IMG/VR virus record: IMGVR_UViG_3300044614_001036
Location: 1-32,709 of that record
Strand: one strand, 5' to 3'
Length of the DNA: 32,709 bases
Origin: a virus
Positions 4,002 through 18,759 of this stretch are shown here, piece by piece; within the stretch, counting starts at the first letter, position 1; every line of letters starts with the position of its first letter. The translations under genes were made by a program, and so were the position numbers. The notes below the pieces were generated by a model, which did not search any database, was not told where the DNA came from, and was given only the letters and a program-made list of their open reading frames with translations.

Positions 4002-4252
4002 GGCCCCTCCTGCCGCCGCGCGGCAATTTCCTTGATCGTGTCAGCCGCCTTGGTCGCATACCACACGGCCTTGCGGAGATCCTGCTCGGCGTCCCACTTC
4101 AAGCCGGTGCGCCAGAGGTACTTGATGGCCGTGGCGCGGCAGTAGGCGACGAACGCCTCGTCACCGAGCGCGGCGCGGAGCGCGTCGATACACTCGATGC
4201 CGCCAGCGGTGTAGTGAGGTGGCCGATTGACCATGTCGGGGGTGGGGGTCAT
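3998..4252 (-). CDS. DUF3310 family protein
   Basis: The 84-aa protein has the DUF3310 signature nearly complete: MVNRPPHYTAGGIECIDALR, then AIKYLWRTGLKWDAEQDLRK and AVWYATKAAD. Family members are widespread in phages and often labelled nucleotide kinase, but they lack a P-loop and their biochemical role is not settled. The ATG at 4252 overlaps the stop of the methyltransferase gene (ATGA), so the two are translated together. Association with DNA modification and replication genes is typical of the family. Confidence 0.85.
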   Translation of the reverse strand: MTPTPDMVNRPPHYTAGGIECIDALRAALGDEAFVAYCRATAIKYLWRTGLKWDAEQDLRKAVWYATKAADTIKEIAARRQEGP

Positions 4253-5628
4253 GCGGCACGCTCCTGGGTGAGTGCCACGCCGAACTGCGCGGCGATGATG
4301 GCGCGGGCCACGTCGGGCGCTACGCTGTTGCCGACCATGCGCTTCTGCGCGGTCAGGGTCAGCGGCACCCGCGCACCCGTCGCCGGGTTGATGCCGTGGT
4401 CGATCACGTACGAATCGGGGAACCCCTGTGCGCGGTACAGCTCACGCGCCGTCAGCATGCGCATGTGGATATCCGTGATGACGTACTCGCGCCCATGCAC
4501 CGTCACCAACCCGTACCGATCCTTCGTCGTCAGCGTGCGCATCGGACGGAACAGCGACCCGCCGTCCTGCTCGTTGCCGTAGTAGGCGACGAGGAAGGCG
4601 CGCACGTCGTCCGGCTGCTCGGTCCCCAGCGACGCCGTGACTTGCGCGTTGTGATCGACTGTCGTGATCGTCGGCAGTGGATCGACCAGTGACGCCGCCA
4701 TGACCTCCCCTAGCTTCCGTTCGCTGTAGTGCTTCGCGAGGAAGGCCGAGACGAGCGCGAAGTGTCCGCCCTTCACGTTGGCGCAGACGGTGCGCAGCGG
4801 TTCCGCCGCGTTCCAACTGCGCGGGTTGCTGGCGTTCGCGTGCTCGGTGATAAAATGCGCGGCGTCGCCCACGACGTACGGGCGGTCGCACTCCAGCACG
4901 TACTTCCGCAGTCCGTTGGCGACCCGCCTCAGCGTGTTGTCGGCCAGCGGCTTCGGGCGTCCGAAGATGCTGCGCGTCGGCGTGTCCCATTGCATGCACT
5001 CGCCAGCCGACCGCCACGTGCGCGGCGTCCCCTTCCCGTGCGTCGGCTTCGGCCAGACGATGAGAAGGCCGTCACAGCGCGCCACGAGGAACAGACGGCG
5101 GCGTGTCGTCGGCCCGCCGAAATCGGCGGCGCGCAGCTCCCGCCACTGCACGTCATAGCCAAGCCGTTCGAGCTTCCGCACCCACGCCCGGAACGTCGCG
5201 CCCTTCCGGTCAGGGTTCGGGCGCTGGGTCGCACGGGTGATCGGCCCCCACTCCAGCCACTCGGACACGTTCTCCAGCGCGATCACGCGGGGCCGGACGG
5301 CCTGTGCCCACCGGATCACCGCCCACGCGAGGCCGCGCCGCTTGTTGCTCACGGGCTTCCCGCCCTTGGCCCGGCTGTGATGGGTGCAGTCCGGCGACGC
5401 CCACATCAGGCCCACGGGTCGGCCGGCGGTCGCTTCCACCGGATCGACCTGCCACACCGACTCGCAGTAGTGGTGCGCGCCAGGGTGGTTCCGGGCGTGC
5501 ATGGCGATCGCTTCGGCGTCGTGGTTGATCGCGATGTCGGGGCTACGGCCGGTCGCCATCTCGATGCCAAGCGAGGCACCGCCGCCGCCTGCGAAGCTAT
5601 CGACGATCAGTTCGTGTGCGCCGATCAC
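4249..5628 (-). CDS. DNA (cytosine-5) methyltransferase, orphan
   Basis: The 459-aa protein has the C5-methyltransferase motifs in order: motif I DSFAGGGGASLG (SAM binding), a motif IV variant WASPDCTHHSRAKGG with the catalytic Cys, motif VI VIALENVSEW, motif VIII GGPTTRRRLFLVA, a variable target-recognition region (about 190-390), and motifs IX/X RELYRAQGFPDSY and QKRMVGNSVAP. SPDC instead of PPC at motif IV is a variant seen in phage enzymes. The start is GTG at 5628, overlapping an in-frame-blocked region; no strong Shine-Dalgarno is seen. No restriction endonuclease lies beside it, so it probably protects phage DNA from host restriction. It borders attP, so in a lysogen it would be the first phage gene at one prophage end. 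Confidence 0.93.
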   Translation of the reverse strand: MIGAHELIVDSFAGGGGASLGIEMATGRSPDIAINHDAEAIAMHARNHPGAHHYCESVWQVDPVEATAGRPVGLMWASPDCTHHSRAKGGKPVSNKRRGLAWAVIRWAQAVRPRVIALENVSEWLEWGPITRATQRPNPDRKGATFRAWVRKLERLGYDVQWRELRAADFGGPTTRRRLFLVARCDGLLIVWPKPTHGKGTPRTWRSAGECMQWDTPTRSIFGRPKPLADNTLRRVANGLRKYVLECDRPYVVGDAAHFITEHANASNPRSWNAAEPLRTVCANVKGGHFALVSAFLAKHYSERKLGEVMAASLVDPLPTITTVDHNAQVTASLGTEQPDDVRAFLVAYYGNEQDGGSLFRPMRTLTTKDRYGLVTVHGREYVITDIHMRMLTARELYRAQGFPDSYVIDHGINPATGARVPLTLTAQKRMVGNSVAPDVARAIIAAQFGVALTQERAA

Positions 5629-5648
5629 GCCGCCGTCCGGGCGCGGGT

Positions 5649-5669
5649 GCGTGTCGTCAGATCGGTCGT
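5649..5669. repeat. Direct repeat copy 1, candidate integrase arm site
   Basis: A 21-bp sequence (5649-5669) is repeated exactly at 5860-5880 in the same orientation. Its last 20 bases are CGTGTCGTCAGATCGGTCGT. This copy lies between the tRNA-derived core and the methyltransferase start, 78 bp from the core. Identity stops abruptly at both ends, as expected for a protein-binding site and not for a decayed duplication. Confidence 0.55.
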
Positions 5670-5747
5670 ACTCGCCCGTTCACTGCCGTTCACGTCCCTG
5701 CTACCGGAGTGCATCCCGCGCACCCCGTCTCCCCTCACGTCACACGT

Positions 5748-5797
5748 CTTAGGATCTGGTGCTTCACGGCGTCCGGGTTCGAGTCCCGGCGTTGGCA
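5748..5797 (+). other. attP: attP core: 3' half of tRNA-Leu(UAG)
   Basis: The plus strand holds a tRNA-Leu 3' half starting at the anticodon loop: CTTAGGA (5748-5754, anticodon TAG), the 3' anticodon strand TCTGG, a 13-nt class II variable arm, a perfect T arm (CCGGG TTCGAGT CCCGG, 5773-5789), acceptor strand CGTTGGC and discriminator A (5797). CCA is not encoded. The preceding bases cannot form the 5' anticodon strand, D arm or acceptor strand, so no complete tRNA is present. Tyrosine integrases commonly cross over in an anticodon loop and carry the tRNA 3' part to restore the host gene. The integrase gene ends 20 nt away, and phage genes lie on both sides. Confidence 0.85.
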
Positions 5798-5817
5798 TGT
5801 TGTTGTATTGCATGCGG

Positions 5818-6945
5818 TTACGCTTCCTTTCGGTGAATGGTCAGGCGCGGCGCGTCGTCGCGTGTCGTCAGATCGGTCGTCATCGCGGCAAGCTCAGCCG
5901 CCGTATCGTCGGGCGTGAAGGCGGCGTAGACGGTCGCGACTTGGTACACGCTGTTGCCCAACCGCGCCGCGATCGCCTCGAAGCTTCGGCCCTGCCGCCG
6001 CATCATCACGGCGACCGTGTGCCGGGCATCTCTCAGCGTGTAGTCGGCCACCTGCACCGCCGCGCACGCCTCCCGGTGCTTCCGGGCCAGCTCGTGCCGC
6101 GACACCCCGTCGAACAGCAGGGCGTCGGGCAGCACGGTCAGGCCCGACAGGAACGGACGCGCCCACGCTTCGATCGGGATGTCGTGCCGGAACCGCTTGG
6201 CCGTCTTTGTGCCAGGGATGTGGCAGACGAGGCGCGCCAAGTCGAGATCCCGCCCGCGCATCAACAGCGCCGACGACACGTCGGCCCCGGTGGCATGGAT
6301 CAGCGCACACGCGGCCCGGTACCGTGGCTCGACGGCCGCGCAGACCTTCTCGTCCACCGCCGCCGACTCGTACCGCAGCCGTGGCGCGTTCTTCTTCGGG
6401 GTACGGATCGTCGGCAGGACGAGCGCCGGCAGCCGCCCCGTTTCCACGAGCCACCGCTCGAAGGCCCGGAGCGCGTACAGATGCTTCCGCCGTGACCCGC
6501 TGGTGATGTCCAGCGCCCGCAGATGCGCTTGCACGGCTGCCGCTGACCACTGCGACCGCATCGGGTGCGCGTCGAGGTACGCGCCGATTTCCCGTTCGTA
6601 GTTCTCCAGCGTCCGCACCTTTCGGCCATCGGCCAGCCATGCCGCAACGAACGTCGGCACCAACGGGCGGAAGTCGACATCCGCCAACCGCGCTCGCAGC
6701 GGGGCCAGTGAGGCGACGCCGGACGCGTAGAGCGCCAGCACCTCGTCGAACGACAGCCGACCCGCCGCGAGTTCGGCCAGCACGTCGAACGCGCGGACGC
6801 GATCGCTCGCCAGCCAGTCCACCGCCGCCTTGTACTGGCGGAACCGCTTAGGGTCGGCGGTGCCCGTGCTGCGCTGCTTGCGGCCCGTGATGAGCGGCAC
6901 GTACAGCGACAGGTTCCCCGCTTTCCCGCGTGGCATGGCCGTCAT
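5818..6945 (-). CDS. int: Tyrosine-type site-specific integrase
   Basis: This is a phage tyrosine recombinase of about 375 aa. A SAM-like core-binding domain (about 95-170) is followed by the catalytic domain. The box I region reads HATGADVSSALLMRGRD, where most integrases have TGxR. The beta-hairpin lysine is in PGTKTAKRFRHDI, box II reads YTLRDARHTVAVMMRRQG (R in place of the usual first His, second Arg kept), then LGNSVYQVATVYAAF with the nucleophilic Tyr and Asn in place of His. I start it at the ATG at 6945, which overlaps the excisionase stop (ATGA), and not 14 codons earlier. It ends 20 nt from the attP core, and one arm-site repeat lies within its last codons. Confidence 0.9.
   Translation of the reverse strand: MTAMPRGKAGNLSLYVPLITGRKQRSTGTADPKRFRQYKAAVDWLASDRVRAFDVLAELAAGRLSFDEVLALYASGVASLAPLRARLADVDFRPLVPTFVAAWLADGRKVRTLENYEREIGAYLDAHPMRSQWSAAAVQAHLRALDITSGSRRKHLYALRAFERWLVETGRLPALVLPTIRTPKKNAPRLRYESAAVDEKVCAAVEPRYRAACALIHATGADVSSALLMRGRDLDLARLVCHIPGTKTAKRFRHDIPIEAWARPFLSGLTVLPDALLFDGVSRHELARKHREACAAVQVADYTLRDARHTVAVMMRRQGRSFEAIAARLGNSVYQVATVYAAFTPDDTAAELAAMTTDLTTRDDAPRLTIHRKEA
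5860..5880. repeat. Direct repeat copy 2, candidate integrase arm site
   Basis: Exact second copy of the 21-bp repeat at 5649-5669, in the same orientation. It lies within the 3' end of the integrase gene (encoding TTDLTTR), 62 bp from the tRNA-derived core. Together the copies bracket the core over about 230 bp, a usual attP size. Confidence 0.55.
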
Positions 6946-7118
6946 GCGACCGCCGCCAGTTCGTGCGACCGATGCGCGGCCACCCACGCGAGGAGTTGCG
7001 CCCGCTCGAACAGCAGCCGCCCGCCGATCTTGGAGCGCGGGCAGGTCGAGCGCCGCAGCGTCTGCGGGTGGAGGCGCACGAACGCCGCCGCCTCCTCCAG
7101 GGTCATGATGTCAGCCAT
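6942..7118 (-). CDS. xis: Excisionase-like MerR/HTH_17 protein
   Basis: The 58-aa protein is a winged-helix DNA-binding domain of the excisionase / HTH_17 type: MTLEEAAAFVRLHPQTLRR, then KIGGRLLFERAQLLAWVAAH. Typical members read tLs.eeAA.fL.v...tlrr...kiGr.wrf.r..l..wl. I start it at the ATG at 7118, with GGGGAGGGGG just upstream, rather than 14 codons earlier. The stop overlaps the integrase start as ATGA, and the start overlaps the previous gene by 8 nt. Position directly before int and small size indicate a recombination directionality factor that bends attP; this is inferred. Confidence 0.8.
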   Translation of the reverse strand: MADIMTLEEAAAFVRLHPQTLRRSTCPRSKIGGRLLFERAQLLAWVAAHRSHELAAVA

Positions 7119-7665
7119 GCGCCCCCTCCCCCGTCTCCGTCGCGCCGCGCAGGGCGGCAAGGTTCTGCATCAGCGCGAACACGTCGTCTCGGATCGGCGC
7201 GCACGGCACCACTTCGTTGCTACCGGCAAAGTCACGACACGGGCACACCTCACCGCAAGGCGTCAGCCGTTCCTCGGTGAGCGCAACGCCAATGCGCTGC
7301 GCCGTCTCTTGAATCCACGCACCTTCGATGTCTCCGCGCTCGCCGTCGCCGTGCCACTGCTTCAGCACCTCAATCGCGAACCGTGCGAGGTCACCCATCG
7401 TCTCCGCATCCACCCACACCACCGCCTCCGTGTCCTGTTCTGTCTGGGCCGCGCTGTTCTGCCGGCGCAGAACAGCGGGCAACTCTTCGATTTTTTCGAA
7501 GGGTTCGGACACGGCGGGCGGGGTGGCGAGGGTGTAGCGGTGGACGGTCGGGCGACGGTCCATCGGGAACTTCAGCGCAGCCTTCACGGCATCGTGCCCG
7601 TCATCAAGCACGAAGGCAGCGCCCTGCTCATCCACGAGCACCCACACCTCCCTCGGCGCGCTCAC
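7111..7665 (-). CDS. Conserved phage protein of unknown function, 184 aa
   Basis: I do not recognise a functional family. The start is GTG at 7665, within a GTGA overlap and preceded by GGAGGTG, so the longer open frame to 8010 is not used. The N-terminal part (VWVLVDEQGAAFVLDDGHD) looks like an alpha/beta or beta-meander domain. The C-terminal part holds GDIEGAWIQETAQRIGVA and TPCGEVCPCRDFAGS, whose three cysteines could bind metal. It is the last unassigned early gene before xis. Confidence 0.6.
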   Translation of the reverse strand: MSAPREVWVLVDEQGAAFVLDDGHDAVKAALKFPMDRRPTVHRYTLATPPAVSEPFEKIEELPAVLRRQNSAAQTEQDTEAVVWVDAETMGDLARFAIEVLKQWHGDGERGDIEGAWIQETAQRIGVALTEERLTPCGEVCPCRDFAGSNEVVPCAPIRDDVFALMQNLAALRGATETGEGAHG

Positions 7666-8408
7666 GGCGACACCTCCAGCGTGGGGACGACGACATACCA
7701 CTCGATCCCCCAGTCCGTGAAACACGTCGCGATGTGCTCTGCCGTCTCGCCTTCCTTCCAGTGATCGGCGTTCGTCACGTTCTCGTCGCTCACCGTCATC
7801 ACGCGCTGGCCGACACACGCCTCGCAGTCCCCCGCCGTCCACGCCCGCGCCGTCTGCACCGGGGTGCGTTCCACCCACGCCTGACCGGGGAGGCACCAGC
7901 GTACGGGCGCTTCGTACGTGGACAACTGCTCCGCCGTGATGAGGCGGCACGGCATGTCCGGCTCGCACTGCGCCACGATGATCGTACTGCGGCTCACACC
8001 GCGATCCCACGGCATCGGGAGCGCCGTCGTCGTCTCCACCGGACGCCGGACGATAGCAACCGGAACCGTCTGAATACCGGCAGCGGTTTCGGTAACTACT
8101 ACCGAACTGTCAGCCGATGCAGAATTAGTAGTTGCCCCGGCGCGGGCGGTGAGGCGGGCGGCGGCGGCGTTCCATGTTTCATGAGACGCCCTGCCGGATT
8201 CGTACCAGTCGAACTCGCCGTCATGGAGAGCGTCGAACATCTCCCGCCCCGTCACCACCCTCGGCGCGGCCCCGCCGACGCTGGGCCAGTGCGCGGCGAA
8301 CCAGTTAAACGTGCTCTTGCGAAACATTGCGCTGAAGTAGTTGTCCTCGGGGAAGTGGTCGAGGAACGCCTCTGCCGCCTCTGCCGCCGTCATCGTGCGA
8401 TCACTCAT
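7662..8408 (-). CDS. Hypothetical early protein, 248 aa
   Basis: I do not recognise this protein. The first 90 residues are helical and aromatic-rich (FRKSTFNWFAAHWPSVG, FDALHDGEFDWYESG). A low-complexity Ala/Thr/Ser stretch follows (about 88-110), then a region with four cysteines (AQCEPDMPC, GDCEACVGQ). The C-terminus, CFTDWGIEWYVVVPTLEV, looks like a beta strand. The ATG at 8408 overlaps the zinc-ribbon gene by 8 nt. Two modules joined by a flexible linker fit the sequence. The function is unknown; its place among early genes makes host takeover or anti-defence roles plausible. Confidence 0.6.
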   Translation of the reverse strand: MSDRTMTAAEAAEAFLDHFPEDNYFSAMFRKSTFNWFAAHWPSVGGAAPRVVTGREMFDALHDGEFDWYESGRASHETWNAAAARLTARAGATTNSASADSSVVVTETAAGIQTVPVAIVRRPVETTTALPMPWDRGVSRSTIIVAQCEPDMPCRLITAEQLSTYEAPVRWCLPGQAWVERTPVQTARAWTAGDCEACVGQRVMTVSDENVTNADHWKEGETAEHIATCFTDWGIEWYVVVPTLEVSP

Positions 8409-8535
8409 CGTCCGTCTCCTGGTTGCACTGTTGGGGACACACCCACACCCACCGCCCGTCCTCGTCCCGCACGCGGACGCCGGGCCGCTCGCAGCGGGGG
8501 CAGTCGCGCTCGTACCAGCGGGGGTGGTCGGTCAT
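8401..8535 (-). CDS. Small zinc-ribbon protein, 44 aa
   Basis: A very short protein with the pattern CPRC near residue 11 and CPQQC near residue 32, spaced as in a zinc ribbon, and a Trp/Arg-rich middle (DEDGRWVWVC). The start chosen is the ATG at 8535, which overlaps the stop of the next upstream gene as ATGA. The open frame extends further upstream, but those codons lie inside another gene. Small zinc-ribbon proteins are common among phage early genes and often bind nucleic acid or host proteins; the target is unknown. Confidence 0.6.
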   Translation of the reverse strand: MTDHPRWYERDCPRCERPGVRVRDEDGRWVWVCPQQCNQETDDE

Positions 8536-8876
8536 CGTGACACCCGCACGAGGGCTGTCGGGTACTCTTGGCAAGCTTCCAACACGCGGCGCACAAACGG
8601 CACGAAGTGCTCGTACATGCCCCACCCGTTCGACGCATTGAACTGCTTGAAGTGCTCCGGCTCGGCCTCAAGCCGTGACAGCCCAGCGCGCAGCGGGTCG
8701 ATCATCTGCGCCGCCGTCGTGATGCCGTTTTCGTCGGGACGCCACAGCGCACGGTAGATTCCCGCCTCGTCAGCCATGCGGCCGAGGTTGTGCGTGATGT
8801 TGGCCCAGAACATCTCGTCGCCGTCGTCGTCCGGTGCGCCGCTCGCCTCTCGGTACAGGTAGACGTCGAGGCTCAC
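8532..8876 (-). CDS. Conserved phage protein, ANITHNLGRMA family
   Basis: This 114-aa protein belongs to a family I recognise from many phage genomes, with unknown role: SLDVYLYREASG at the start, then FWANITHNLGRMADEAGIYR, LWRPDENG, NASNGWGMYEHFVPFVRRVL and a final VSR. The high conservation of ANITHNL and NGWG suggests a defined active or binding site. The start is GTG at 8876, overlapping the upstream stop as GTGA, directly after a GGGGGGAGGG tract. The frame is open further upstream, but nothing before this point resembles the family. Confidence 0.75.
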   Translation of the reverse strand: MSLDVYLYREASGAPDDDGDEMFWANITHNLGRMADEAGIYRALWRPDENGITTAAQMIDPLRAGLSRLEAEPEHFKQFNASNGWGMYEHFVPFVRRVLEACQEYPTALVRVSR

Positions 8877-9103
8877 CCCTCCCCCCGCATCGCTTCCGTC
8901 ACCTGCCCGTGCGTCGCCCCGCACGCCTTCGCATGCTTGCTCGCCACGTACAAATCCCACCCGTCCGGGTCCAGCTCCGGCGTCTGCGCCCGCGCCGTGA
9001 CCACGCAGAGCGCGGCGGCGATGGCGGCCGACAGGCCGTCGGCCATGCGGGCGTCAATGGATTGCGCGGCCAGCGCGCGCCGTGGGAATCGGATGCGCGT
9101 CAT
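8873..9103 (-). CDS. Hypothetical protein, 76 aa
   Basis: Unrecognised small protein. A basic start (MTRIRFPRRALAAQS) is followed by an Ala-rich helix (GLSAAIAAALCVVTARA) that could be a weak membrane segment or a hydrophobic core helix, then a hydrophilic tail with WDLYVASKHAKACGATHGQV. The ATG at 9103 overlaps the upstream stop as ATGA, which is the main support for translation. Confidence 0.55.
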   Translation of the reverse strand: MTRIRFPRRALAAQSIDARMADGLSAAIAAALCVVTARAQTPELDPDGWDLYVASKHAKACGATHGQVTEAMRGEG

Positions 9104-9360
9104 ACCGCCACCTCTTCCGACTGCACCGGCTGCTGCGTCTCCCCCTCACGGGCGATGGCGATCCGGCACAGTTCCACTTGCGTGCATAGTGCGTCAAGGA
9201 CAGTGTCGGCCCACTCAACCTTCCCCATTGCGTCATCCAGCGACCCCCCCGCGTGGCACAGCGCCGCGTCCACCAGCGCCTTGTCCAGGCGTCGGGACAG
9301 CAACAGCGCGTGCTGCAGGTGCCCGCGCGTGCGGATGATGGCGTCCGTAACGGCGCTCAT
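9100..9360 (-). CDS. Hypothetical helical protein, 86 aa
   Basis: Unrecognised. It looks like a helical bundle: TDAIIRTRGHLQHALLLSRR, LDKALVDAALCHAGGSLDDA, VEWADTVLDALCTQVELCRI. I start it at the ATG at 9360 (MSAVTDAI), which gives an ATGA overlap with the membrane-protein gene upstream, rather than three codons earlier. There are no membrane segments or known motifs. Confidence 0.55.
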   Translation of the reverse strand: MSAVTDAIIRTRGHLQHALLLSRRLDKALVDAALCHAGGSLDDAMGKVEWADTVLDALCTQVELCRIAIAREGETQQPVQSEEVAV

Positions 9361-9527
9361 GACGGCCACTCCTCGCGCCGCGTCATGCGAGCCCGCAGCG
9401 CCCGGCGCTGTGCCTCGTCCTCAGCGGCGTCCTCGACGCCCCCCGCGCTGACCAATGCCATCACGATGACCCCGACGCACGAGCCGATGAAGATCCCCAA
9501 CAATGTCCCCGCCCAGAATCCGGTCAT
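9357..9527 (-). CDS. Small single-span membrane protein, 56 aa
   Basis: A 56-aa protein with one clear transmembrane helix at residues 4-28 (FWAGTLLGIFIGSCVGVIVM) and a charged tail (VEDAAEDEAQRRALRARMTR) expected in the cytoplasm by the positive-inside rule. The ATG at 9527 overlaps the gam stop as ATGA and has GGGAGG 4 nt upstream. It could be a superinfection-exclusion or membrane-anchoring peptide, but nothing proves it. It lies in early genes, far from the lysis block, so a holin role is less likely. Confidence 0.6.
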   Translation of the reverse strand: MTGFWAGTLLGIFIGSCVGVIVMALVSAGGVEDAAEDEAQRRALRARMTRREEWPS

Positions 9528-10075
9528 GCATCCTCCCGCGAAGTGAGCTTCAGGTACGGCAGATCGTGCTCGGGCACGATGGTGAACCCTTCGACCTCTT
9601 CTCCCCCATCCGCGAGACGGGCCAGCACCGCAGGCTTCACGACGGCCAGCACCGGCTTCTCGGTGACCTTGACGCCCCCGGCGAGCGTCTTCGCAAACGC
9701 CAGCGCCAGCGCCTCGTCCGCGACCTCGACGGCTTCCGGCTTCGTGCGACGGCCAATCGTGCCCCACGTCAACGCCACCGACTTTTTGCCCTTGGCGAAC
9801 GTGAGCCGCTCGGCAATCGCCAGCACGCACCGCTCCAGCGCGGCGATCCGATCCGCACGCGGGGTCCGCTGCGTGGCGTAGTGGCTGCGGATCAGCGCGA
9901 GTTCGGCTTCCTCGCGCTCATCGATGGCGCAGACCTCGGCCGTCAGCGCGGTCTGCTGACGCATCCACCAACTGGCTTGGGCCTCGACGGCAGCGGGACT
10001 CGCGGATGCCATCCACTCCGCGACCTCTTCAACCGTTGCCGGTAGCACTTCGTCCTGTGTCTCAGTACCTTGCAT
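9524..10075 (-). CDS. gam: Gam-like host-nuclease inhibitor
   Basis: The 183-aa protein resembles Mu Gam: a long N-terminal helical pair (about 40-90), a beta region with KGKKSVALTWGTIGRRTKPE where Gam proteins place their DNA-binding core, then KTLAGGVKVTEKPVL and a C-terminal strand FTIVPEHDLPYLKL. Mu Gam is Ku-like, binds duplex DNA ends and blocks exonucleases such as RecBCD. The start is the ATG at 10075, with AGAGGA about 7 nt upstream; the longer open frame to 10456 runs through the HTH gene and is not used. It follows a leader with a perfect hairpin and heads the early run to the integrase. Confidence 0.8.
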   Translation of the reverse strand: MQGTETQDEVLPATVEEVAEWMASASPAAVEAQASWWMRQQTALTAEVCAIDEREEAELALIRSHYATQRTPRADRIAALERCVLAIAERLTFAKGKKSVALTWGTIGRRTKPEAVEVADEALALAFAKTLAGGVKVTEKPVLAVVKPAVLARLADGGEEVEGFTIVPEHDLPYLKLTSREDA

Positions 10076-10081
10076 TCGTGC

Positions 10082-10091
10082 GTCCTCTGTG
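10082..10091 (-). promoter_or_regulatory. gam ribosome-binding leader motif shared with sak4
   Basis: CACAGAGGAC lies just before the gam start here, and the identical 10-mer lies before the Sak4-like start at 2752-2761. Both genes follow a non-coding leader with a stem-loop. The AGAGGA core is the likely Shine-Dalgarno sequence in each. Confidence 0.45.
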
Positions 10092-10116
10092 GTGGGGGAT
10101 GTGCGTGGTGGGACTG

Positions 10117-10144
10117 CCCCAGAGAGCCACGCGGCTCTCTGGGG
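10117..10144. terminator. Perfect 12-bp hairpin between HTH gene and gam
   Basis: CCCCAGAGAGCC (10117-10128) pairs fully with GGCTCTCTGGGG (10133-10144) around a 4-nt loop. On the plus strand it is followed by TTTCCTC, so it could weakly terminate rightward transcripts. On the minus strand, the direction of the genes, it begins 5 nt after the HTH stop codon but lacks a T run. It may be an attenuator, a processing or stability element, or an antitermination site. Confidence 0.6.
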
Positions 10145-10149
10145 TTTCC

Positions 10150-10431
10150 TCATGTCTGGCCGCGCGGGAGGGGGGCAATGAGCGTGTCCCACGTCAGCCC
10201 CGAAAGCTCTTCGGCGGCGGCGACAATCCGGCGACCGCCTGGCGTGGTCGCGGGGCGTTGCAGGGAAATCACGTAGCAGGTCAGGCTGAGTGACAGCCCC
10301 GCCCGATCCGCCACGTCCCGCACACGCACGCCTCGGATCAGCAGCCGCGCCCGCACGCGAGTGCGCTCGAGCTGTGCCCGACGCGACAGAGGGCGGATTC
10401 GTGTGGATGAGTTGACAAGCACAGTGAGCAT
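10150..10431 (-). CDS. Small helix-turn-helix regulator
   Basis: The C-terminal two thirds carry a lambda-repressor-like HTH: GVRVRDVADRAGLSLSLTCY, then a VISLQRP turn typical of Cro/CI proteins (vsrvlsGkR) and RIVAAAEELSGLTWDTLI. About 30 arginine-rich residues precede it. The start at 10431 has no clear Shine-Dalgarno; a GTG a few codons inside is possible. The 9-mer TTGACAAGC lies at the start codon, and an inverted copy lies 97 bp upstream, which suggests autoregulation. It is the first gene after a 150-nt gap and lies upstream of gam, so it may control the early genes. This is inferred. Confidence 0.7.
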   Translation of the reverse strand: MLTVLVNSSTRIRPLSRRAQLERTRVRARLLIRGVRVRDVADRAGLSLSLTCYVISLQRPATTPGGRRIVAAAEELSGLTWDTLIAPLPRGQT

Positions 10432-10526
10432 AGTGAGGGTTGCGGCACGAGGTCATACCCCCCCCGCGTGCCAGATGAGAAGCCCATCTTGAAACTGAAC
10501 TTGTCCACCTTCACCCAGCTTGTCAA
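10412..10526. promoter_or_regulatory. Inverted TTGACAAGC pair around the HTH promoter region
   Basis: TTGACAAGC occurs on the plus strand at 10412-10420 and on the minus strand at 10526-10518, 97 bp apart and facing each other. The minus-strand copy supplies a perfect -35 TTGACA upstream of the HTH gene, but no good -10 follows at 16-19 nt. The pair could be operators for the HTH protein, and the 10432-10581 gap between genes holds little else. Confidence 0.35.
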
Positions 10527-10581
10527 GTGTCCCACAGCCCAGCGACCCCATGACACCGCAAGGGGAGCCGTCAGCGGTGGG

Positions 10582-10863
10582 TCATTCAGATTCTGTGGCG
10601 GTGACAGGCGCGGCTTTTTTTGCCGCCGGTCCCCGCTTCCGTCGCGGCTTCGGCAGTTCGGCGTGGCACCACACCCGCAGCACTTCGGGCACTAGCGGCG
10701 GTTCCGGTTCCTGAATCGTGAACGCCTCGGAAAATTCCCACCCGAGTTCGCACGCCGCGTTGATGAAGGCTTCCAGCTCCGCACGGGGTATGTCGCGGAT
10801 CAGCCATCGCTCGCGGGCGTCGTCGCCGACGCGCGGGATCGGGTCGCCGTCAGGCAGCCACAT
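10582..10863 (-). CDS. Hypothetical protein, 93 aa, basic C-terminus
   Basis: Unrecognised. Residues 1-60 form an alpha/beta pattern (RWLIRDIPRAELEAFINAAC, ELGWEFSEAFTIQEPEPP), followed by LRVWCHAELP and a lysine/arginine-rich tail (KPRRKRGPAAKKAAP) that could bind nucleic acid. The ATG at 10863 overlaps the metallophosphoesterase gene by 14 nt (a GTG one codon earlier is also possible). It is the last gene before the regulatory gap. Confidence 0.6.
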   Translation of the reverse strand: MWLPDGDPIPRVGDDARERWLIRDIPRAELEAFINAACELGWEFSEAFTIQEPEPPLVPEVLRVWCHAELPKPRRKRGPAAKKAAPVTATESE

Positions 10864-11965
10864 CACGCCAGCCGCGCATAAACCGCACCGCCTGGTCGGG
10901 GTCCGAGAAGCAGACGATCCGCTCGTCACGCGTCGGCGGCAGGACGATGGTCGGCATGGTCGGCCGGAAGTCTTGGAACCCCTTCGCACGGGCGTAGGCA
11001 CTCTCAACCTGCGCAGAGCCTGGCCGCACCGCCCACACGTCGCGGTTGTCAAAGTTGCGCACCCCGACGCACGCGGTGTGGTTGTGCGCGATGGCGAGCA
11101 CGTCTGGCACCACGCCCCACTTCGTGACACGCTCTTCCATCCAGCGGTAGCAGGCGTGCTCTGGGTTCATGTTGCTGTGCCGCCGGAACTGATGCCGCGT
11201 TGCGATGAGCCACTCAGCCGTGACCTCGTCCGCGTTGTGCGGGTTGACGATCTGCACTTTCCAGAGCAGTTCATCGGGCACAAAGTGAAAGCGGTGCCGC
11301 TTCGCGAATGCCGCGACGTGATCAAACCCCGCGACACTTTTCGTCCAATCGGTGTGGTTCCCGCTGATGCTGCCGAGCCACTTGCCGCGAAACCATTCGA
11401 TGTAGATGTCACCGAACCGCAACTGATCGGCCACCGCGCGCACGTCCTTGTCGCGGTGGACGATGTTGTTCTGCAGCAGATCGCCAATGTCAATGGTGTA
11501 GAGCCCATCCGTGCGCCCGACATACTTCGCGGTGTGTTCCAGAAAGTCGAGGTCCGTCCCAGTGCCGTCGATGTGCTGGTCGCCCTGCACGACGATTCCG
11601 ACCGGCTTGTCGCTGGCGATCTTCACCGTGGCGTAGTGCTGCACCCGCGCAACCGCGACGGACTTCGCCGCCCGCTTGCGATAGCGCGCCAAAAACTCTT
11701 CTGTTGACTCGTCTTCGGTGATGTTTGGCGCAAGGACCGTGGCAACGAGTGGCCCATCCGGCTCGCGGTACTCTGCCACAACCCGCGAGCCGGGGGCCAG
11801 CATCATTGGCCCGCACTGCAGTTGCTTCCGCATGTTGGTGATCTGCGCGTACCGCAGCCCCAGTGCGTCGGCGATCTCGACAGCGGTGAAGCCTTCTGCC
11901 GACATCGATTCCAGCCGCTGCTTCTCTTCCGGTGTCCAGATGTGGTACGCACGCTGGCGAGGCAT
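10850..11965 (-). CDS. Metallophosphoesterase with N-terminal helix-turn-helix
   Basis: The 371-aa protein joins two modules. Residues 8-50 look like a DNA-binding HTH: WTPEEKQRLESMSAEGFTAV, then EIADALGLRYAQITNMRKQL. From about residue 115 there is a calcineurin-like phosphoesterase: VVQGDQHIDG (D-x-H), IDIGDLLQNN (GD), SISGNHTDW (GNH), TRHQFRRHSN and AIAHNHTACVG (metal-binding His). Family members are metal-dependent nucleases or phosphatases such as SbcD/Mre11. The ATG overlaps the upstream stop as TAATG. It is the first non-structural gene after the tail cluster. A nuclease that acts on phage or host DNA is likely, but substrate and target site are unknown. Confidence 0.88.
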   Translation of the reverse strand: MPRQRAYHIWTPEEKQRLESMSAEGFTAVEIADALGLRYAQITNMRKQLQCGPMMLAPGSRVVAEYREPDGPLVATVLAPNITEDESTEEFLARYRKRAAKSVAVARVQHYATVKIASDKPVGIVVQGDQHIDGTGTDLDFLEHTAKYVGRTDGLYTIDIGDLLQNNIVHRDKDVRAVADQLRFGDIYIEWFRGKWLGSISGNHTDWTKSVAGFDHVAAFAKRHRFHFVPDELLWKVQIVNPHNADEVTAEWLIATRHQFRRHSNMNPEHACYRWMEERVTKWGVVPDVLAIAHNHTACVGVRNFDNRDVWAVRPGSAQVESAYARAKGFQDFRPTMPTIVLPPTRDERIVCFSDPDQAVRFMRGWRDVAA

Positions 11966-12327
11966 TACCGCCCGTCCGCGCGGGTGAACGTCACCGTGGC
12001 GTCCATCAGATCATGCGTGGTCCCGTTCGCGGTCAACGTCGCCACGACGCGCACGGTCGCCAGCGCGTCCATGCTGCCCGCCACGTAGGGCAGTTCAGCC
12101 GCCCACTGGTTCGCCGTCGCTGACCAGGCGAACGACACCGCGCTCGCGCCCGCGAGCGCCGTCGGCGTCACCGCGCCGTCATCCGTGAACGCTTGAGCCG
12201 ACATCGTGAACGCATCCCCGTCAACGAGGGCGCGGCCGAGGATCGCGTCCGTCAGTTTCCCGGCGGCGATGCGCAGCACATATCCGGTGCGTCGGTCCCA
12301 CGTGGAAATGCGATTGACAGTGCTCAT
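11965..12327 (-). CDS. Beta-rich tail-associated protein, 120 aa
   Basis: I do not recognise a named family. The sequence alternates short strands with Thr/Ala/Val-rich turns (GAVTPTALAGASAVSFAWSA, TVRVVATLTANGTTHDL) and ends in TVTFTRADGR, typical of an Ig-like or baseplate beta-sandwich. The start at 12327 overlaps the stop of the repeat protein (ATGA), so the two are coupled. It resembles N-terminal domains of upper-baseplate or tail-fibre proteins in overall pattern; the role is inferred from position. Confidence 0.6.
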   Translation of the reverse strand: MSTVNRISTWDRRTGYVLRIAAGKLTDAILGRALVDGDAFTMSAQAFTDDGAVTPTALAGASAVSFAWSATANQWAAELPYVAGSMDALATVRVVATLTANGTTHDLMDATVTFTRADGR

Positions 12328-13472
12328 GGATCGTCCGTGGTCACGTCGGCGCGGTAGCGACTCGAGAGAGCGAGCGCGGCGTTGTACCGACTGGAAAGGG
12401 CGAGGTGCCCGAGGTGCCGCGCGCGGGTGGCGACGACGGCGCGCGGCGACGTTGGCGTAAACGAGGCATACGGCGAGCCGATTGCCGTGCCGGTGCGACG
12501 CAATGCGCCGACCGTGGTTGCAACGACCTGCACGGCAACGACCGCCGCGCCAGTGCGCCGGATGCTGCCCGCGCTCGCACCGGTGACGCGCGCCGACGCG
12601 GCAGCGGTGCCCGTGCGGCCGATGCTCCCCGTGCTGCTTGCCGCCACCAGCGCGGCGGCTGTGCTTGCGCCACGCCGACCGATTGCGCCTGAGGCTGTGG
12701 TGTTCGCGCTCGGCGCTCCCGCCGTGCCGCTGCCCGTGCGACGCACCGCGCCGGTGCTCGTGCTCGTGACGCGCACCTCTGCCGCTGCGACACCCGTGCG
12801 CCGCAGGGCACCGCTCGCTGACGCCTGGACGCGACCCGTAGCAGCCGCCGACCCGGCACGATAAATCGCTCCGCTCGCCGTCGCGCCTGCAACGGCCACG
12901 CTCGCCGCTTGGGCCGTCCCTGTGCGGCTGACCGCGCCAGCGACCGTCGCGACAACAGCAACACCCGCTGCCGCCGCACCAGCACGCGTGATCGCCCCAC
13001 TGCCGGACGTTGCGACTCGGACACTTGCTGCCGCCGCACCAGCACGCGTGAGCGCTCCGCTGACACTGCCGCTGCCCGATGTGACTGTTGCGGCTTGTGC
13101 GGCCCCGGTGCGACGGATCGCGCCCGTCGCGCTGCCGACCACACGGGCAACCCCGCCGCCCGTTCCGGTGCGGACGATGGCTCCCGCGCCACCCGCCGCG
13201 ACGGAGGACGACGCAGCCGCGCTGCCGGTGCGACGGATCCGGCCCGACCCGCTGGCTGTATTGCCACCACTGACGACCGGATCGCCGCCGAGGATGCCCG
13301 TGTTGAGCGGGCGACCGTTCAGCGTGCGGGCCGTGCCTTCAGCGACGCGCGGGGTTGCGGTTGCCGCGCCACCGCGACGGAGAGCGCCGGACGCGGTGGC
13401 GCTGACGGCGACACCGGATGCTGGCTGCGCCGCAACGATGACTGCGCCGTGCAGAATCGGCAGGGAGTACAT
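12324..13472 (-). CDS. Tail protein made of about 14 glycine/alanine-rich 20-residue repeats
   Basis: The 382-aa protein has a short hydrophobic start (MYSLPILHGAVIVAAQ), then residues 29-341 consist of repeats of about 20 aa with consensus G-A-[I/L]-x-R-[T/A]-G-x-A-x-A-x-x-x-V plus five variable positions; I count 14. One spacer (RPLNTGILGGDPVVSGG) interrupts after the first. The C-terminus has two copies of ALSSRYNA/ALSSRYRA. Regular hydrophobic positions and strict Gly/Arg spacing suggest a beta-solenoid or fibrous shaft. It lies among tail-tip genes, so a fibre or adhesin shaft is likely. I know no described family with this repeat. Confidence 0.75.
   Translation of the reverse strand: MYSLPILHGAVIVAAQPASGVAVSATASGALRRGGAATATPRVAEGTARTLNGRPLNTGILGGDPVVSGGNTASGSGRIRRTGSAAASSSVAAGGAGAIVRTGTGGGVARVVGSATGAIRRTGAAQAATVTSGSGSVSGALTRAGAAAASVRVATSGSGAITRAGAAAAGVAVVATVAGAVSRTGTAQAASVAVAGATASGAIYRAGSAAATGRVQASASGALRRTGVAAAEVRVTSTSTGAVRRTGSGTAGAPSANTTASGAIGRRGASTAAALVAASSTGSIGRTGTAAASARVTGASAGSIRRTGAAVVAVQVVATTVGALRRTGTAIGSPYASFTPTSPRAVVATRARHLGHLALSSRYNAALALSSRYRADVTTDDP
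12450..13388 (-). repeat. Coding tandem repeats of about 60 bp
   Basis: The 20-residue repeats are encoded by roughly 60-bp units. Nucleotide identity between units is partial: the GCGCC/CGxACxGG section encoding R-T-G is the best kept and the rest varies. Two units are 6 bp longer. The pattern fits old tandem duplication under protein-level selection. Copy number could vary between relatives. Confidence 0.75.
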
Positions 13473-13493
13473 ATCGGCGCAGCTCGGATCAGG

Positions 13494-13655
13494 TTACAGC
13501 GAGCGCAGCTGCGCCAGCGTCAGGTCTGTCTCTTCGATCTCGGTCGTCAGCCGCTCGACAGCGGCCACATCACCAATCGCTGCCGCAGACGCGGAGAGCT
13601 GCGACAGGTGGACGACCTTGCGCTCAAGCATGGCAATCAGGGCGGCGATGGTCAT
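13494..13655 (-). CDS. 53-aa coiled-coil protein in the tail cluster
   Basis: A short gene: ATG at 13655, TAA at 13496-13494, product MTIAALIAMLERKVVHLSQL... ending LAQLRSL. Hydrophobic residues fall in heptad spacing (IAALIAMLERKVVHLSQL, then VERLTTEIEETDLTLAQL), predicting an almost entirely coiled-coil peptide. It begins 2 nt after the stop of the 480-aa tail gene and ends 21 nt before the repeat-protein gene. It could be a small trimerisation or chaperone subunit of the tail tip; that is inference. Confidence 0.65.
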   Translation of the reverse strand: MTIAALIAMLERKVVHLSQLSASAAAIGDVAAVERLTTEIEETDLTLAQLRSL

Positions 13656-13657
13656 GG

Positions 13658-15100
13658 TTAGATCACCATCGCGCGGAGCATCACCGTGCTCGTGTTGAGG
13701 ACCATGTAGACGTAGTCGATCTCAGTGGCTCCGTCTTTGTAATGCACGTCGAACGCCGTGTCGCCCGCGATGGCCGCGCCTTGGGTGTACGTCATCGTGG
13801 ACCATCCGTCCTGCGCGTTGGTCACGACGTTAAAGCGCATCCATCGGCCCGTCGCGTCTTTTTGTGCGTAGATCGAGTTGTGGCGGTACGTGTACTTCGT
13901 GCCCGCGCCGAAGACTTCGGTCGCCGGGGCGTAGGTGAGCGCACTCACCCATGTGTTCGCCGCGATGTCGTAGCGGTCCAGCACCGCACCCGCGCCGCCA
14001 CGGAACGAGTAGATAAAGCGCCCGTTCTGGATGGCGTTTTCGTTCGTCCACGCTGCGTCCGTGGCTTCCCACACCCAATGCGCGGACATGCCCACGGCGG
14101 GCGCAGCGGCACGGGCGGCGGTCGGCGTGAGCGTCGTCCACGTACCCGCGCTGATGCTGTAGCGGAACAGCGTGACGGCGTTCGACCCCAGGTAGTAGAT
14201 GAAGTCGTCGTTCCCTTCGATGTTGTAGACGCTCGTTGCATCGGGCTGCGTCGTCCACGCCGCCGATGTCGTCAGCACCGTGCCGGTGTTGCTGGCAATC
14301 GTGCGGATCTGCCCCGCGCCCGTGCCCGAGACGATGCGGACCTGTGAGTTCGTCCACTGGTTCGTCGTCCACGTCTTCGCGCTGTTCGTGAGCGTCGATG
14401 CGCCGCCAGCCGTCGCCGTGCCGGTGGCGAATGCGACGTAGCCATCACCCATCCACGACGGGGTGGCAACGAGCTTGCTGTCGGTGCCGATCACCGCTGC
14501 CGGTGCGATACCGTCCGTCGCGCCCGTCTCGGCGCTGCTCCACGTGTTCAACGCGAAGTCGTAGAACCTGAACACCGCTGCCGTCGTCGTGCCCGCTGCC
14601 GTGATGGCGTTGAGCACGTACCAACGCGGCGTCAGCAAGCGGAACGTCGTCGATGCGGTGAACGCTGACGCCTGCGTGGCGACCGTGATCACTGCGTTGG
14701 TGCCGACGGTGTTGCTGACAATCGCCAGCGTCACGCCAGCGTTCGGCCCGCCCGTGATGTGGATGCTGTAGCCGCGCAGGTCGCGGGCCAGCGTCAGGTT
14801 CGTGGTGATCGTGGACGTGGTGCCCGCCGTCGCCGTGCCCGAGGGGCCGATGCTCGTGGCCGTCCCACACGCGCCGACCGCAAACGTGCCCGCGAGTGCG
14901 CCGGACGGGATCTGCACCCACGCATCTTCTTGCGGGTTGTAGAGGTACTGCACTGTGGCCGAGACAACGTAGAGCTGCTGCTGGCGGTAGTGCCTCGACG
15001 ATGCGATGAACGCGCCCGCGACCGTGGCTGCCGGCGCCGGCGTGCAGAACTCCCACCGCTTGAGATCGAGAATCTTTCGGTTGCCGTTGGTGGTTGCCAT
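13658..15100 (-). CDS. Tail-tip protein, probable kelch-like beta-propeller, 480 aa
   Basis: The sequence alternates strand pairs such as YVVSATVQYLYNPQEDAWVQ, RFYDFALNTWSS, FRYSISAGTWTTLTP and LDRYDIAANTWVSALTYAP. These x-Y-D/N-x-x-x-x-x-W motifs are typical kelch/propeller blades. Two related insert domains share a pattern, GTATAGTTSTITTNLT to VATQASAF (about 87-150) and GTATAGGASTLTNSAKTW to IEGNDDF (about 230-300); the second holds SGTGAGQIRTIASNTGTVL, a module common in phage tail proteins. A receptor-binding or tail-tip role is likely. It is coupled to the 53-aa gene after 2 nt. Confidence 0.7.
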   Translation of the reverse strand: MATTNGNRKILDLKRWEFCTPAPAATVAGAFIASSRHYRQQQLYVVSATVQYLYNPQEDAWVQIPSGALAGTFAVGACGTATSIGPSGTATAGTTSTITTNLTLARDLRGYSIHITGGPNAGVTLAIVSNTVGTNAVITVATQASAFTASTTFRLLTPRWYVLNAITAAGTTTAAVFRFYDFALNTWSSAETGATDGIAPAAVIGTDSKLVATPSWMGDGYVAFATGTATAGGASTLTNSAKTWTTNQWTNSQVRIVSGTGAGQIRTIASNTGTVLTTSAAWTTQPDATSVYNIEGNDDFIYYLGSNAVTLFRYSISAGTWTTLTPTAARAAAPAVGMSAHWVWEATDAAWTNENAIQNGRFIYSFRGGAGAVLDRYDIAANTWVSALTYAPATEVFGAGTKYTYRHNSIYAQKDATGRWMRFNVVTNAQDGWSTMTYTQGAAIAGDTAFDVHYKDGATEIDYVYMVLNTSTVMLRAMVI

Positions 15101-15107
15101 ATGCGTC

Positions 15108-15770
15108 TCAGGTGACGTTGATGTTGCGGCGCATGCTGTCTGCGCCGAGGCGCATCAGCGAGGGAATCTGCTCGGTCGCCGCGAGGCCACCGATCTGCGT
15201 TTGGTTCGTCAGCGTCGACACCGTGGTGACCGTGCCGACCGTCGTGATCGTCGCGAGCGTCAACGACGCCGAGATGGAGTCGACCAGCACGCGCAGACGG
15301 CCTGCCGTGTCGGGCATCGACTGGCCGATGGTGCGGACGAGGGCTTGCAACGCCATGCGCTGCGCTTCGATGGCTTCGACCAACTCTGCAATGGCGTCCG
15401 TCGGGATCTTGTCGTCGATGCTTGCCAGCGCCGTGCTGGAGACATCCAGCCCCAGACCGAGCGCCGCCATCGCGGCCGCCGTGATACGCAGCTCGGCGCG
15501 GGTGCCCGCCGGCGCCGCGCGGGCGACCGTGTCCTCCTGCGCTCGCGTGACGGTCAGCACATCACCGACGCGCGCGGTACACATCACCTGTTCGCGCCCG
15601 AGGACGACGTTGCTCCCGTCCACCTCTTCGAGCGTCAAGATGAAGAAGTCGAGGCCCGTCGGCGCAGGGAATCGAACCCCCTCGCCCGTCGCCAGCGTGA
15701 GCGACGTGGTGCTCGTCGTGATGCTGCTGGCGAGCGTGCTCGCGGCCGCATCCTTCCACAGACGTGCCAT
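15108..15770 (-). CDS. Tail-tip/fibre N-terminal-type protein, 220 aa
   Basis: It opens MARLWKDAAASTLASSITTS, then GEGVRFPAPTGLDFFILTLE, MCTARVGDVLTVTRAQEDTV and RAELRITAAAMAAL. I recognise this pattern (wkdnA.stla..i, GxGxxFPxPT, LTV.RAqEgT.A) from the N-termini of many phage tail-fibre or tail-tip proteins. The C-terminal half has a helical part (AIAELVEAIEAQRMALQALV) and a Thr/Val-rich strand region. It probably anchors receptor-binding parts to the tail. The gene starts at the ATG at 15770 and ends 7 nt before the 480-aa gene. Confidence 0.75.
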   Translation of the reverse strand: MARLWKDAAASTLASSITTSTTSLTLATGEGVRFPAPTGLDFFILTLEEVDGSNVVLGREQVMCTARVGDVLTVTRAQEDTVARAAPAGTRAELRITAAAMAALGLGLDVSSTALASIDDKIPTDAIAELVEAIEAQRMALQALVRTIGQSMPDTAGRLRVLVDSISASLTLATITTVGTVTTVSTLTNQTQIGGLAATEQIPSLMRLGADSMRRNINVT

Positions 15771-15807
15771 TATGGTTTCAGGCGGAGGGTGAGTGGACGG
15801 CGGTCGC

Positions 15808-16155
15808 TCATGCGTCGATCCGGATGAGCGCCCACGGGAACGCGCGGGCGGTGCCGCCGTCCTGTCGCAGCACGGCGATCAGCTCCGAGCCGGACGGCAC
15901 GGCGATGAGCGGCGAGATCTTGACGGGATCGGATTGCGTGTGCTGATACGGTGCGCTGAACGCGGTTCGGGTGGTGCCGCCGGGCCGAGCGCGCGTCCGC
16001 AGCGTGAGCGTAAGCGTCTCCCCGTTCGCCAGGTTCACGGCATCAACGTGCAGCACGTAGCACCCGCCGCCCGTCGGCCCCGCCTGTGTGACGAGCGTGG
16101 TGTCCGTGGCGAGCGTCGGCGTCGTCGTGTTCTCGCTGGCGATTGAGGCAGGCAT
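15808..16155 (-). CDS. Beta-rich structural protein, 115 aa
   Basis: Unrecognised small protein with a jelly-roll-like pattern: TLVTQAGPTGGGCYVLHVDA, GETLTLTLRTRARPGG, SPLIAVPSGSELIAVLRQ and FPWALIRIDA at the end. This layout (an outer strand, a Gly-rich turn, an LTL strand, a final W-L-I/V strand) is frequent in small phage tail-tip proteins. The ATG at 16155 overlaps the previous stop by one base (TGATG). The structural role is inferred from its place between tail-tip genes. Confidence 0.6.
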   Translation of the reverse strand: MPASIASENTTTPTLATDTTLVTQAGPTGGGCYVLHVDAVNLANGETLTLTLRTRARPGGTTRTAFSAPYQHTQSDPVKISPLIAVPSGSELIAVLRQDGGTARAFPWALIRIDA

Positions 16156-16952
16156 CAGGCGAACAGGTGAAGGATGGGTGTCGCGACGGCGACATTGCGA
16201 TCAAACGCGAGCGAGACGCGCGTGCTCGCCGGGATCGCGCACGGGTACGGCCCCCACATCAGCGCGACAGACGCGTTGCCCCACTGGCCGGGCAGCCCGA
16301 CGCGCTCGGACGCCCGCACTTCAGACCCGCTCGCGCCGACGTACAGCGACATCAGCGCAATACCACCCGTGTCGCTGACCGACCCGAAGCTCACGCCCCA
16401 CGCGCGATACGCTCGCGCGGTGCTGGCGACGAACTCCACTCGCGCACCGCCGCCATACGCGCCCGTAATCGTTGTCGTGCCGCTCGTGGTCGTCGTGTCC
16501 GCGCCGAACGTGTCGCATCGGTGATATCCGACCGGGTACAGCGCGCCGCTGCGCACGAGCGAGACTGCGACCGCCACGTTCGGAGCGCCGCCGATGCTGC
16601 ACCGGCATGCGGCGGCGAGGCGACCCGCCGGGACCCGGATCGGGAGATACGCCTGCAGCGCGTAGGGCGAGCGATACCCGAGAATGTTCATCGCCAGATT
16701 CGACACGAGCGGCTCCTCGGACCCACTCGCGCCGGTCGCAATGGTCACGAGATACCGACCGCCCGTATCCGCGTTTGGCGACACGGACAACACGAGCCCC
16801 TCCGCACTCGGCGCATTCGCCGTCAGCTGCACATAACTGCTCAACGCGTGCGCGGTGGCCGACGGCGTCAGCAGGACATCGACGTTGTCGTTATCGACAT
16901 ACGTCGAGGCCACCATTGACGCATCGACTCGCACCAGCGGCCAGTTACTCAC
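16155..16952 (-). CDS. Beta-rich tail-tip protein, 265 aa
   Basis: I do not recognise a family. The sequence is mostly strands and turns without long helices: GRYLVTIATGASGSEEPLVS, LQAYLPIRVPAGRLAAACRC, GGARVEFVASTARAYRAWGV, ending VSLAFDRNVAVATPILHLF. Two GASGSE turns (about 74 and 213) hint at an internal duplication. It is coupled by one base to the 115-aa gene and overlaps the 140-aa gene by 4 nt. A carbohydrate-binding or structural role at the tail tip is possible but not shown. Confidence 0.6.
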   Translation of the reverse strand: MSNWPLVRVDASMVASTYVDNDNVDVLLTPSATAHALSSYVQLTANAPSAEGLVLSVSPNADTGGRYLVTIATGASGSEEPLVSNLAMNILGYRSPYALQAYLPIRVPAGRLAAACRCSIGGAPNVAVAVSLVRSGALYPVGYHRCDTFGADTTTTSGTTTITGAYGGGARVEFVASTARAYRAWGVSFGSVSDTGGIALMSLYVGASGSEVRASERVGLPGQWGNASVALMWGPYPCAIPASTRVSLAFDRNVAVATPILHLFA

Positions 16953-17371
16953 ATCGGCACCGTCGCGAGCACCGCGTCCCGACGCGCGGCGTCAAGCAGC
17001 CCGGCTGCGATCAGCGCATCGACCCCCGCAATCGTGCGCGGGTCGAGCACGTCGATGTCGCTCACCACCTGAAAGCGCAGCAGCCACGCGCGGAGCGCCG
17101 CCGCCTGCCCTGTCGTGCCTTGTGCGGCGAGATGGACCGCGACCAAGCACGCGTCGCCGAGTCGATCCATGAACGTCTGCCGCGAGATGGTCGAGCGGAC
17201 GCGCGGAGGACGTGGCACGAGCATGCGCTGCGTCGCGTCCCACTGCACCAGCGCGAAGTCTGGCGCGCTTTCATACGGCACGGCGGCGAGGCCGTCCGGC
17301 AACGGAGTGGCGATGACCGTCCCGCTGCTCACCATCGCGCCGGTGTCGGATCGATAGACGATGTAAAACAT
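16949..17371 (-). CDS. Phage protein of the tail region, 140 aa
   Basis: The protein starts MFYIVYRSDTGAMVSSGTVI, a beta-hairpin typical of small tail-associated proteins. A helical part follows: ISRQTFMDRLGDACLVAVHL, then QAAALRAWLLRFQVVSDIDV, LDPRTIAGVDALIAAGLLDA and ARRDAVL. This C-terminal pattern (F..R......A, a short linker, VDLdDp.t..Gv..L...Gll...R...IL) is one I recognise from many phage proteins near tail genes, with no assigned role. A tail-fibre assembly function would fit. The ATG at 17371 overlaps the upstream stop as TGATG. Confidence 0.65.
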   Translation of the reverse strand: MFYIVYRSDTGAMVSSGTVIATPLPDGLAAVPYESAPDFALVQWDATQRMLVPRPPRVRSTISRQTFMDRLGDACLVAVHLAAQGTTGQAAALRAWLLRFQVVSDIDVLDPRTIAGVDALIAAGLLDAARRDAVLATVPM

Positions 17372-18403: not shown

Positions 18404-18741
18404 GGGCAGGCCGGTGGCTGCGCGGCGCGGGTGAGCGCACTCGCGCGGTGAACGTAGAGCGTTGGGTGGATGCGCCACTGCGCCCCTCGGCACGGCGGCC
18501 ACGCGACGAGGTAGCGGTCGCCTGCATCCGTGCGACGCAGGGTGACCACCGCGCGGCAGGTGCCGTCGGCGGCGACAAACCGTGTCTCGTCGCGCCGCTC
18601 GACATCAATGGCGCCGATCTGCGGCGCGTCAAGCCACTGGCCGATGCCCGGCCCCAGCGCGCATGGGTTGGGCAGGTCACGCACGGCGGTCTGTGCGGAC
18701 ACCGGCGCGGCGAGCACGAGGGCGAGGAGGAGGAGGCGCAT
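18400..18741 (-). CDS. Secreted cysteine-containing protein, 113 aa
   Basis: The protein starts with a clear Sec signal peptide, MRLLLLALVLAAPVSAQTAV, with cleavage predicted after VSA (residue 16). The mature part has four cysteines (PNPCALG, DGTCRAVV, PPCRGAQ and the final PPACP), enough for two disulfides, and no lipobox, so it is periplasmic or secreted and not a lipoprotein. I chose the ATG at 18741 because the signal peptide begins there. It is one of the few genes here preceded by a gap (88 nt). Superinfection exclusion, lysis support or a lysogenic-conversion role are possible; I cannot choose between them. Confidence 0.65.
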   Translation of the reverse strand: MRLLLLALVLAAPVSAQTAVRDLPNPCALGPGIGQWLDAPQIGAIDVERRDETRFVAADGTCRAVVTLRRTDAGDRYLVAWPPCRGAQWRIHPTLYVHRASALTRAAQPPACP

Positions 18742-18759
18742 AGCAATGAGGCGAAAGGG

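Follow-up and report, generated by a model that had tools for sequence, protein, structure and literature searches.

The window analysed here, the whole 32,709-bp stretch of an IMG/VR virus record that is classed as linear and has a G+C content of 66.9%, carries at positions 5748-5797 (+ strand) the sequence CTTAGGATCTGGTGCTTCACGGCGTCCGGGTTCGAGTCCCGGCGTTGGCA, which is the 3' half of a tRNA-Leu(UAG) gene. This half, the core of a predicted attP, starts at base C32 in the anticodon loop and ends with the discriminator base A73; no CCA is encoded. Read 5' to 3', it opens with the anticodon loop CTTAGGA, which holds the anticodon TAG, and continues with TCTGG as the 3' strand of the anticodon stem, a variable arm of class II, a fully paired T arm (CCGGG-TTCGAGT-CCCGG), CGTTGGC as the 3' strand of the acceptor stem and the discriminator A. 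In the window ARAGORN detected no complete tRNA gene, and a 5' half of the tRNA was likewise absent; when an artificial 5' half was placed before the core, the program called tRNA-Leu(tag). The letters and this call bear out the first-pass annotation, which had described a tRNA-Leu 3' half lacking its 5' half and extending from the anticodon loop to the discriminator. The Rfam tRNA model gave no call on any tRNA half, either that of the window or those of the relatives described below. A blastn search with a 56-bp stretch as the query resulted in a match (E = 3e-7) on a plasmid-borne stretch of Parabacteroides distasonis. That stretch, CTTAGGATCTGATGCTTCACGGCGTGGGGGTTCGAGTCCCTTCAGCCGCA, is shaped like a tRNA-Leu(TAG) gene and is identical to the core at 41 of 50 positions; the variable arms of the two are identical. 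Judged by this match, the resemblance of the core to a tRNA is above chance.

A tyrosine integrase gene (int; 5818-6987, - strand) lies on one side of the core, and its stop at 5818 leaves a gap of 20 nt between the two, the distance given in the earlier reading. The start of the gene is uncertain (GTG at 6987, ATG at 6945 or ATG at 6936). The protein matched the PHROG_1 integrase at 1.5e-20, and its match to PF00589 (E = 4.7e-5) was under the Pfam cut-off. Comparison of the predicted fold with known structures gave a Z score of 18.0 for XerA (rmsd 8.4, 247 aligned residues), 14.3 for the catalytic domain of HP1 Int (rmsd 3.3, 142 aligned) and 13.4 for lambda Int, which aligns from residue 1 of the model; the N-terminal part of the model is a short beta-beta-alpha. 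Both the arginine of the RH[TS] box (Arg-II) and the nucleophilic tyrosine are retained in all the aligned integrase relatives. Directly upstream of int is the gene of a small HTH_17 protein (6942-7160, - strand; its ATG start is probably at about 7118). Matches to PF12728 (4.3e-7) and to the PHROG_66 excisionase (2.3e-5) suggest that this protein is probably an excisionase, or directionality factor. The first gene on the core side away from the integrase encodes a C5 cytosine methyltransferase (4249-5628), and Sak4-like and helicase replication/recombination genes are located beyond it. The replication genes claimed for the far side of the core are therefore present, but the methyltransferase gene, not one of them, comes first. 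Among the other genes of the window we noted a Sak4-like annealing protein gene at 1966-2772, a gene for a Mu Gam-like end-protection protein at 9524-10456 (- strand; PHROG_2205, 1.3e-7) and, among the tail-side genes, a strongly repetitive 382-aa ORF at 12324-13472 (- strand) with units like SGAIRRTGAA and exact DNA repeats of 25 nt.

Two 27-nt direct repeats, identical at 25 of 27 positions and 211 bp apart, enclose the core. Copy 1, GCGTGTCGTCAGATCGGTCGTACTCGC, occupies 5649-5675 (+ strand) and contains the bipartite sequence TGTCGT-CAGATC-GGTCGT at 5652-5669. Copy 2 has the same orientation and is situated within the 3' end of int, at 5860-5886 (+ strand), with its bipartite site at 5863-5880. 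Each copy carries, on the tRNA strand, the arrangement TGTCGT-n6-GGTCGT, in which a 6-mer is repeated at a 12-bp period. The 21-nt exact repeat was reached in 0 of 5000 first-order shuffles of the region, and elsewhere in the window a longer repeat at such spacing was found only in one repeat-rich region at about 12.7-13.3 kb. Paired direct repeats on either side of the core are typical arm-type integrase sites in such phages (PMC3706429). The core and both arms together form a complete predicted attP, one that is now available for an uncultured temperate phage.

A tblastn search of 50,697 phage records with the integrase (threshold 1e-5) returned two matches, and a scan of viral contigs with the single integrase sequence returned none; alignment-based scans were required for the detection of relatives. 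In IMG/VR these scans gave L039 (contig 3300020202_000106), L040, L044 and L041, with integrase identities of 42%, 36%, 33% and 29%, respectively; the integrase of Caudoviricetes sp. ctjLE16 (MW202627, L002) is also 29% identical to that of the window. The group so formed has so far been only weakly annotated by Pfam and NCBIfam. As in the window, four of the relatives (L039, L040, L041 and ctjLE16) have a tRNA-Leu 3' half that starts with the first base of the anticodon loop, and no tRNA half was found near int in L044. The isotype is UAG in the window, in L039 (4219-4268, + strand) and in L040 (4734-4783, - strand, separated from int by one more gene), and CAA in L041 and ctjLE16, where the halves are on the - strand. 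The group stays with tRNA-Leu genes despite the wide divergence of its integrases.

In each of the five attPs, the 200 bp on either side of the core hold exactly two bipartite arm sites, one per side and both on the tRNA strand. The distance between these sites, start to start, is 211 bp in the window and 221, 221, 209 and 200 bp in L039, L040, L041 and ctjLE16, respectively; the half-sites vary by phage (GTCGY, GGTAGA, GGTAGC) and the layout is conserved. Since the bipartite motif was defined after inspecting the sequences, the shuffle counts obtained for it (two sites reached in 0 to 13 of 4,000 shuffles per phage) are descriptive. Compared with the window, the core and arms of L039 (L039:4114-4352) are inverted relative to int, and inverted attP sites have also been reported for the mycobacteriophages Omega and Gaia (PMC10865867). 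Pairs of GGTAGC-n6-GGTAGC arms bracket other tRNA 3' halves at L177:323-558 (Leu(UAA)-like) and L185:4986-5214 (Thr-like), and at L176:1848-2077 such a pair adjoins a canonical integrase, so that the arm layout is not private to this integrase group; we note these three arm-bracketed loci as unannotated attP sites. When viral contigs were scanned with the GTCGT-type arm pattern, the 120+ matches were mostly due to chance, and no T arm was located between the sites in the loci that were checked.

The integration module is not present in all close kin of the window phage. A sister phage of 42,277 bp (G001, IMGVR 3300034272_001526; loci L014 and L032-L034) is 99.4-100% identical to window positions 7510-14096 and 15421-32709, the late genes, and has an early region that is mosaic with respect to the window, with 65% identity in places. 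Its sequence is circularly permuted relative to the window and runs through both window ends as continuous phage DNA. The window is incomplete: positions 12408-24989 of G001, about 12.6 kb with primase-polymerase, terminase, portal and head genes, join window positions 1 and 32709. Comparison of L032:6587-8715 with window positions 4238-7510 showed that most of the HTH-int-attP block (5656-7125, 1.47 kb) has about 0.33 kb in its place in G001, between shared segments of 31 bp (5625-5655) and 39 bp (7126-7164). Adjacent to this replacement, a Mom-family DNA-modification gene (PF25680, 8e-42; L032:8066-8704) occurs where the window has the C5 cytosine methyltransferase. The 42-kb G001 contig gave no PF00589 match at E<=1, that is, no tyrosine integrase; the attP core was not found in it at up to 3 mismatches, and it contains no complete tRNA gene. 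As the block is replaced in G001, the integration module is a unit that can be swapped, and this near-identical pair indicates that lysogeny functions were lost or gained within one phage lineage.

Tyrosine integrases target tRNA genes, and the rebuilding of the tRNA by a phage-borne 3' half is a well-known strategy. The core, its two arms, the family and fold of the integrase and the recurrence of the arrangement in four relatives make it very probable that the locus is the attP of a temperate phage with a lambda-type integration module, inserting at a host tRNA-Leu(UAG) gene and restoring the tRNA. Here the strategy is met in a phage group that is new and about which little is known. In the mechanism that we propose, the N-terminal domain of the integrase would bind the two bipartite arm sites and its other domains the core, and strand exchange would occur between the anticodon-loop part of the core and the identical sequence in the host tRNA-Leu(UAG) gene. 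The 5' half from the host would thereby be joined to the phage-borne 3' half, giving an intact tRNA-Leu at one end of the prophage, and the 3' half native to the host would be displaced to the opposite end. The tRNA half points with its 3' end towards int, so that in the prophage the restored tRNA would adjoin int. The HTH protein encoded upstream of int would be the likely excision factor, and the window DNA would be unintegrated, with both arms present (POP').

Box I of canonical tyrosine recombinases holds an arginine (TG-x-R). In the integrases studied here box I reads TGAD (window, L039, L041, ctjLE16) or TGAE (L040, L044), and the Arg-I position is accordingly Asp or Glu in 6/6 (window, L039, L040, L041, L044 and L002). 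At the HxxR box the integrases of the window, L039, L040 and L044 have RxxR, and those of L041 and ctjLE16 keep HxxR; the tyrosine is present in all six, and the H/W position of the window integrase is Asn. With Asp at Arg-I, RxxR for HxxR and Asn at the H/W position, the catalytic competence of the window integrase is not certain. We therefore considered a decayed module, in which the integrase would be inactive and the tRNA half a relic. Such decay would fit the off-consensus catalytic positions and a sister phage that manages without the module, but the integrase frame is open and the arm repeats are still identical across 21 nt. Moreover, Asp or Glu occupies Arg-I in 5/5 related integrases, down to 29% identity, and 4/5 of these are accompanied by tRNA halves and arms. 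The IntCTnDOT integrases lack the Arg-I arginine and use another arginine instead (PMC8138268), a precedent for a displaced catalytic arginine by which the absence of Arg-I is no proof of inactivity. In the light of these observations decay of the module is unlikely.

A K-T/N-x-x-R-x-R sequence following the catalytic lysine is conserved in all six integrases, and R249 and R251 in it, near box I, are invariant in the alignment of the integrase relatives. These two residues may be candidates for the replacement of Arg-I. A tentative extension of this idea, to which we give limited credence, is that the group works without Arg-I, an acidic residue standing there and the conserved arginine just past the catalytic lysine (K-T-x-x-R-x-R) substituting for it; this would be a second relocation, independent of that in IntCTnDOT. 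The group offers a ready test case for the question of whether tyrosine recombinases can function with an acidic residue in place of Arg-I.

A prophage junction (attL or attR), or host DNA beside a phage remnant, would also show a single tRNA piece, as expected at the displaced prophage end. However, phage genes and arm sites are situated on both sides of the core, and in the circularly permuted sister contig phage DNA continues through both window ends, which makes a junction of this kind very unlikely. One special case, the junction between tandem prophages, would have an identical appearance, and sequence alone cannot distinguish it from the unintegrated form. Another reading is tRNA-dependent lysogeny of the Fionnbharth/Gaia type, in which the common core is short (~10 bp) and leaves the tRNA unrestored, and the phage brings a complete tRNA gene of the target isotype; this is known in mycobacteriophages, and Gaia uses it at a tRNA-Leu(CAA) site (PMC10865867). 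It is very unlikely here, because the phage-borne 3' half is complete, with a 50-nt core extending to the tRNA 3' end, and because no complete tRNA was seen in the 42-kb sister or in the window, from which about 12.6 kb of the phage is missing. The intact arms, the phage genes on both sides, the four relatives and the circularly permuted sister give good support to the view of an unintegrated phage already put forward in the first-pass annotation.

The same annotation had proposed an attP with a tRNA-Leu(UAG) target, and this part is well supported; neither the host attB nor lysogen junctions were seen, and for this reason we infer, from the phage side, that a host tRNA-Leu(UAG) gene serves as attB. 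The expectation that the 50-bp core would identify the host failed, since neither an exact 43-mer nor a relaxed gapped pattern of the core had a match in 84,980 species genomes; the 43-mer and the relaxed pattern also gave 0 matches among 2.9 million viral contigs. The Parabacteroides-like variable arm is too little for naming a host phylum. Caulobacter and Microcystis phages have major capsid proteins 50-56% like that of the window phage, and phages of several genera have primase-polymerases 25-30% like that of G001; neither comparison names the host, and an 838-aa tail protein had no match and hence gave no host clue.

Experiments have shown that mycobacteriophage Omega integrates into tRNA-Leu; its core of 44 bp has its left end in the anticodon loop, and its arm sites are paired (PMC3706429). 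The window resembles the cassette of Omega and Cluster J in having a tyrosine int, an attP on its 3' side and an HTH candidate excision factor upstream (PMC3706429), and its core, like that of Omega, is a tRNA-Leu 3' half from the anticodon loop with arm-type direct repeats on both sides. The target is UAG in the window phage and CAA in Omega, and the arms are 6-mers with a 12-bp period in the former and TGCATAC-type 10-mers in the latter; Omega was absent from the tblastn matches to the window integrase at 1e-5. In phage ctjLE16, as in the window, the genes for the small HTH protein and the integrase are followed by a tRNA-Leu 3' half and a C5 methyltransferase gene, box I reads TGAD, and bipartite arm sites are present, 200 bp apart in ctjLE16; its half-site (GGTAGC) and target (tRNA-Leu(CAA)) are its own; a P22-like portal gene is annotated in its record and the attP is unannotated. 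The closest integrase found (42%) is that of L039, which has the same tRNA-Leu(UAG) target and a matching arm motif; the letters of its tRNA differ from those of the window, so its host is probably another one. In the Islander collection the anticodon-centred islands number 2,083, about half, versus 1,836 at the T-stem region (PMC4383910). The entries of that collection are integrated elements, whereas the window element is unintegrated, but it has the components of the anticodon-centred islands, a 3' tDNA fragment from the anticodon loop together with a tyrosine integrase (PMC4383910).
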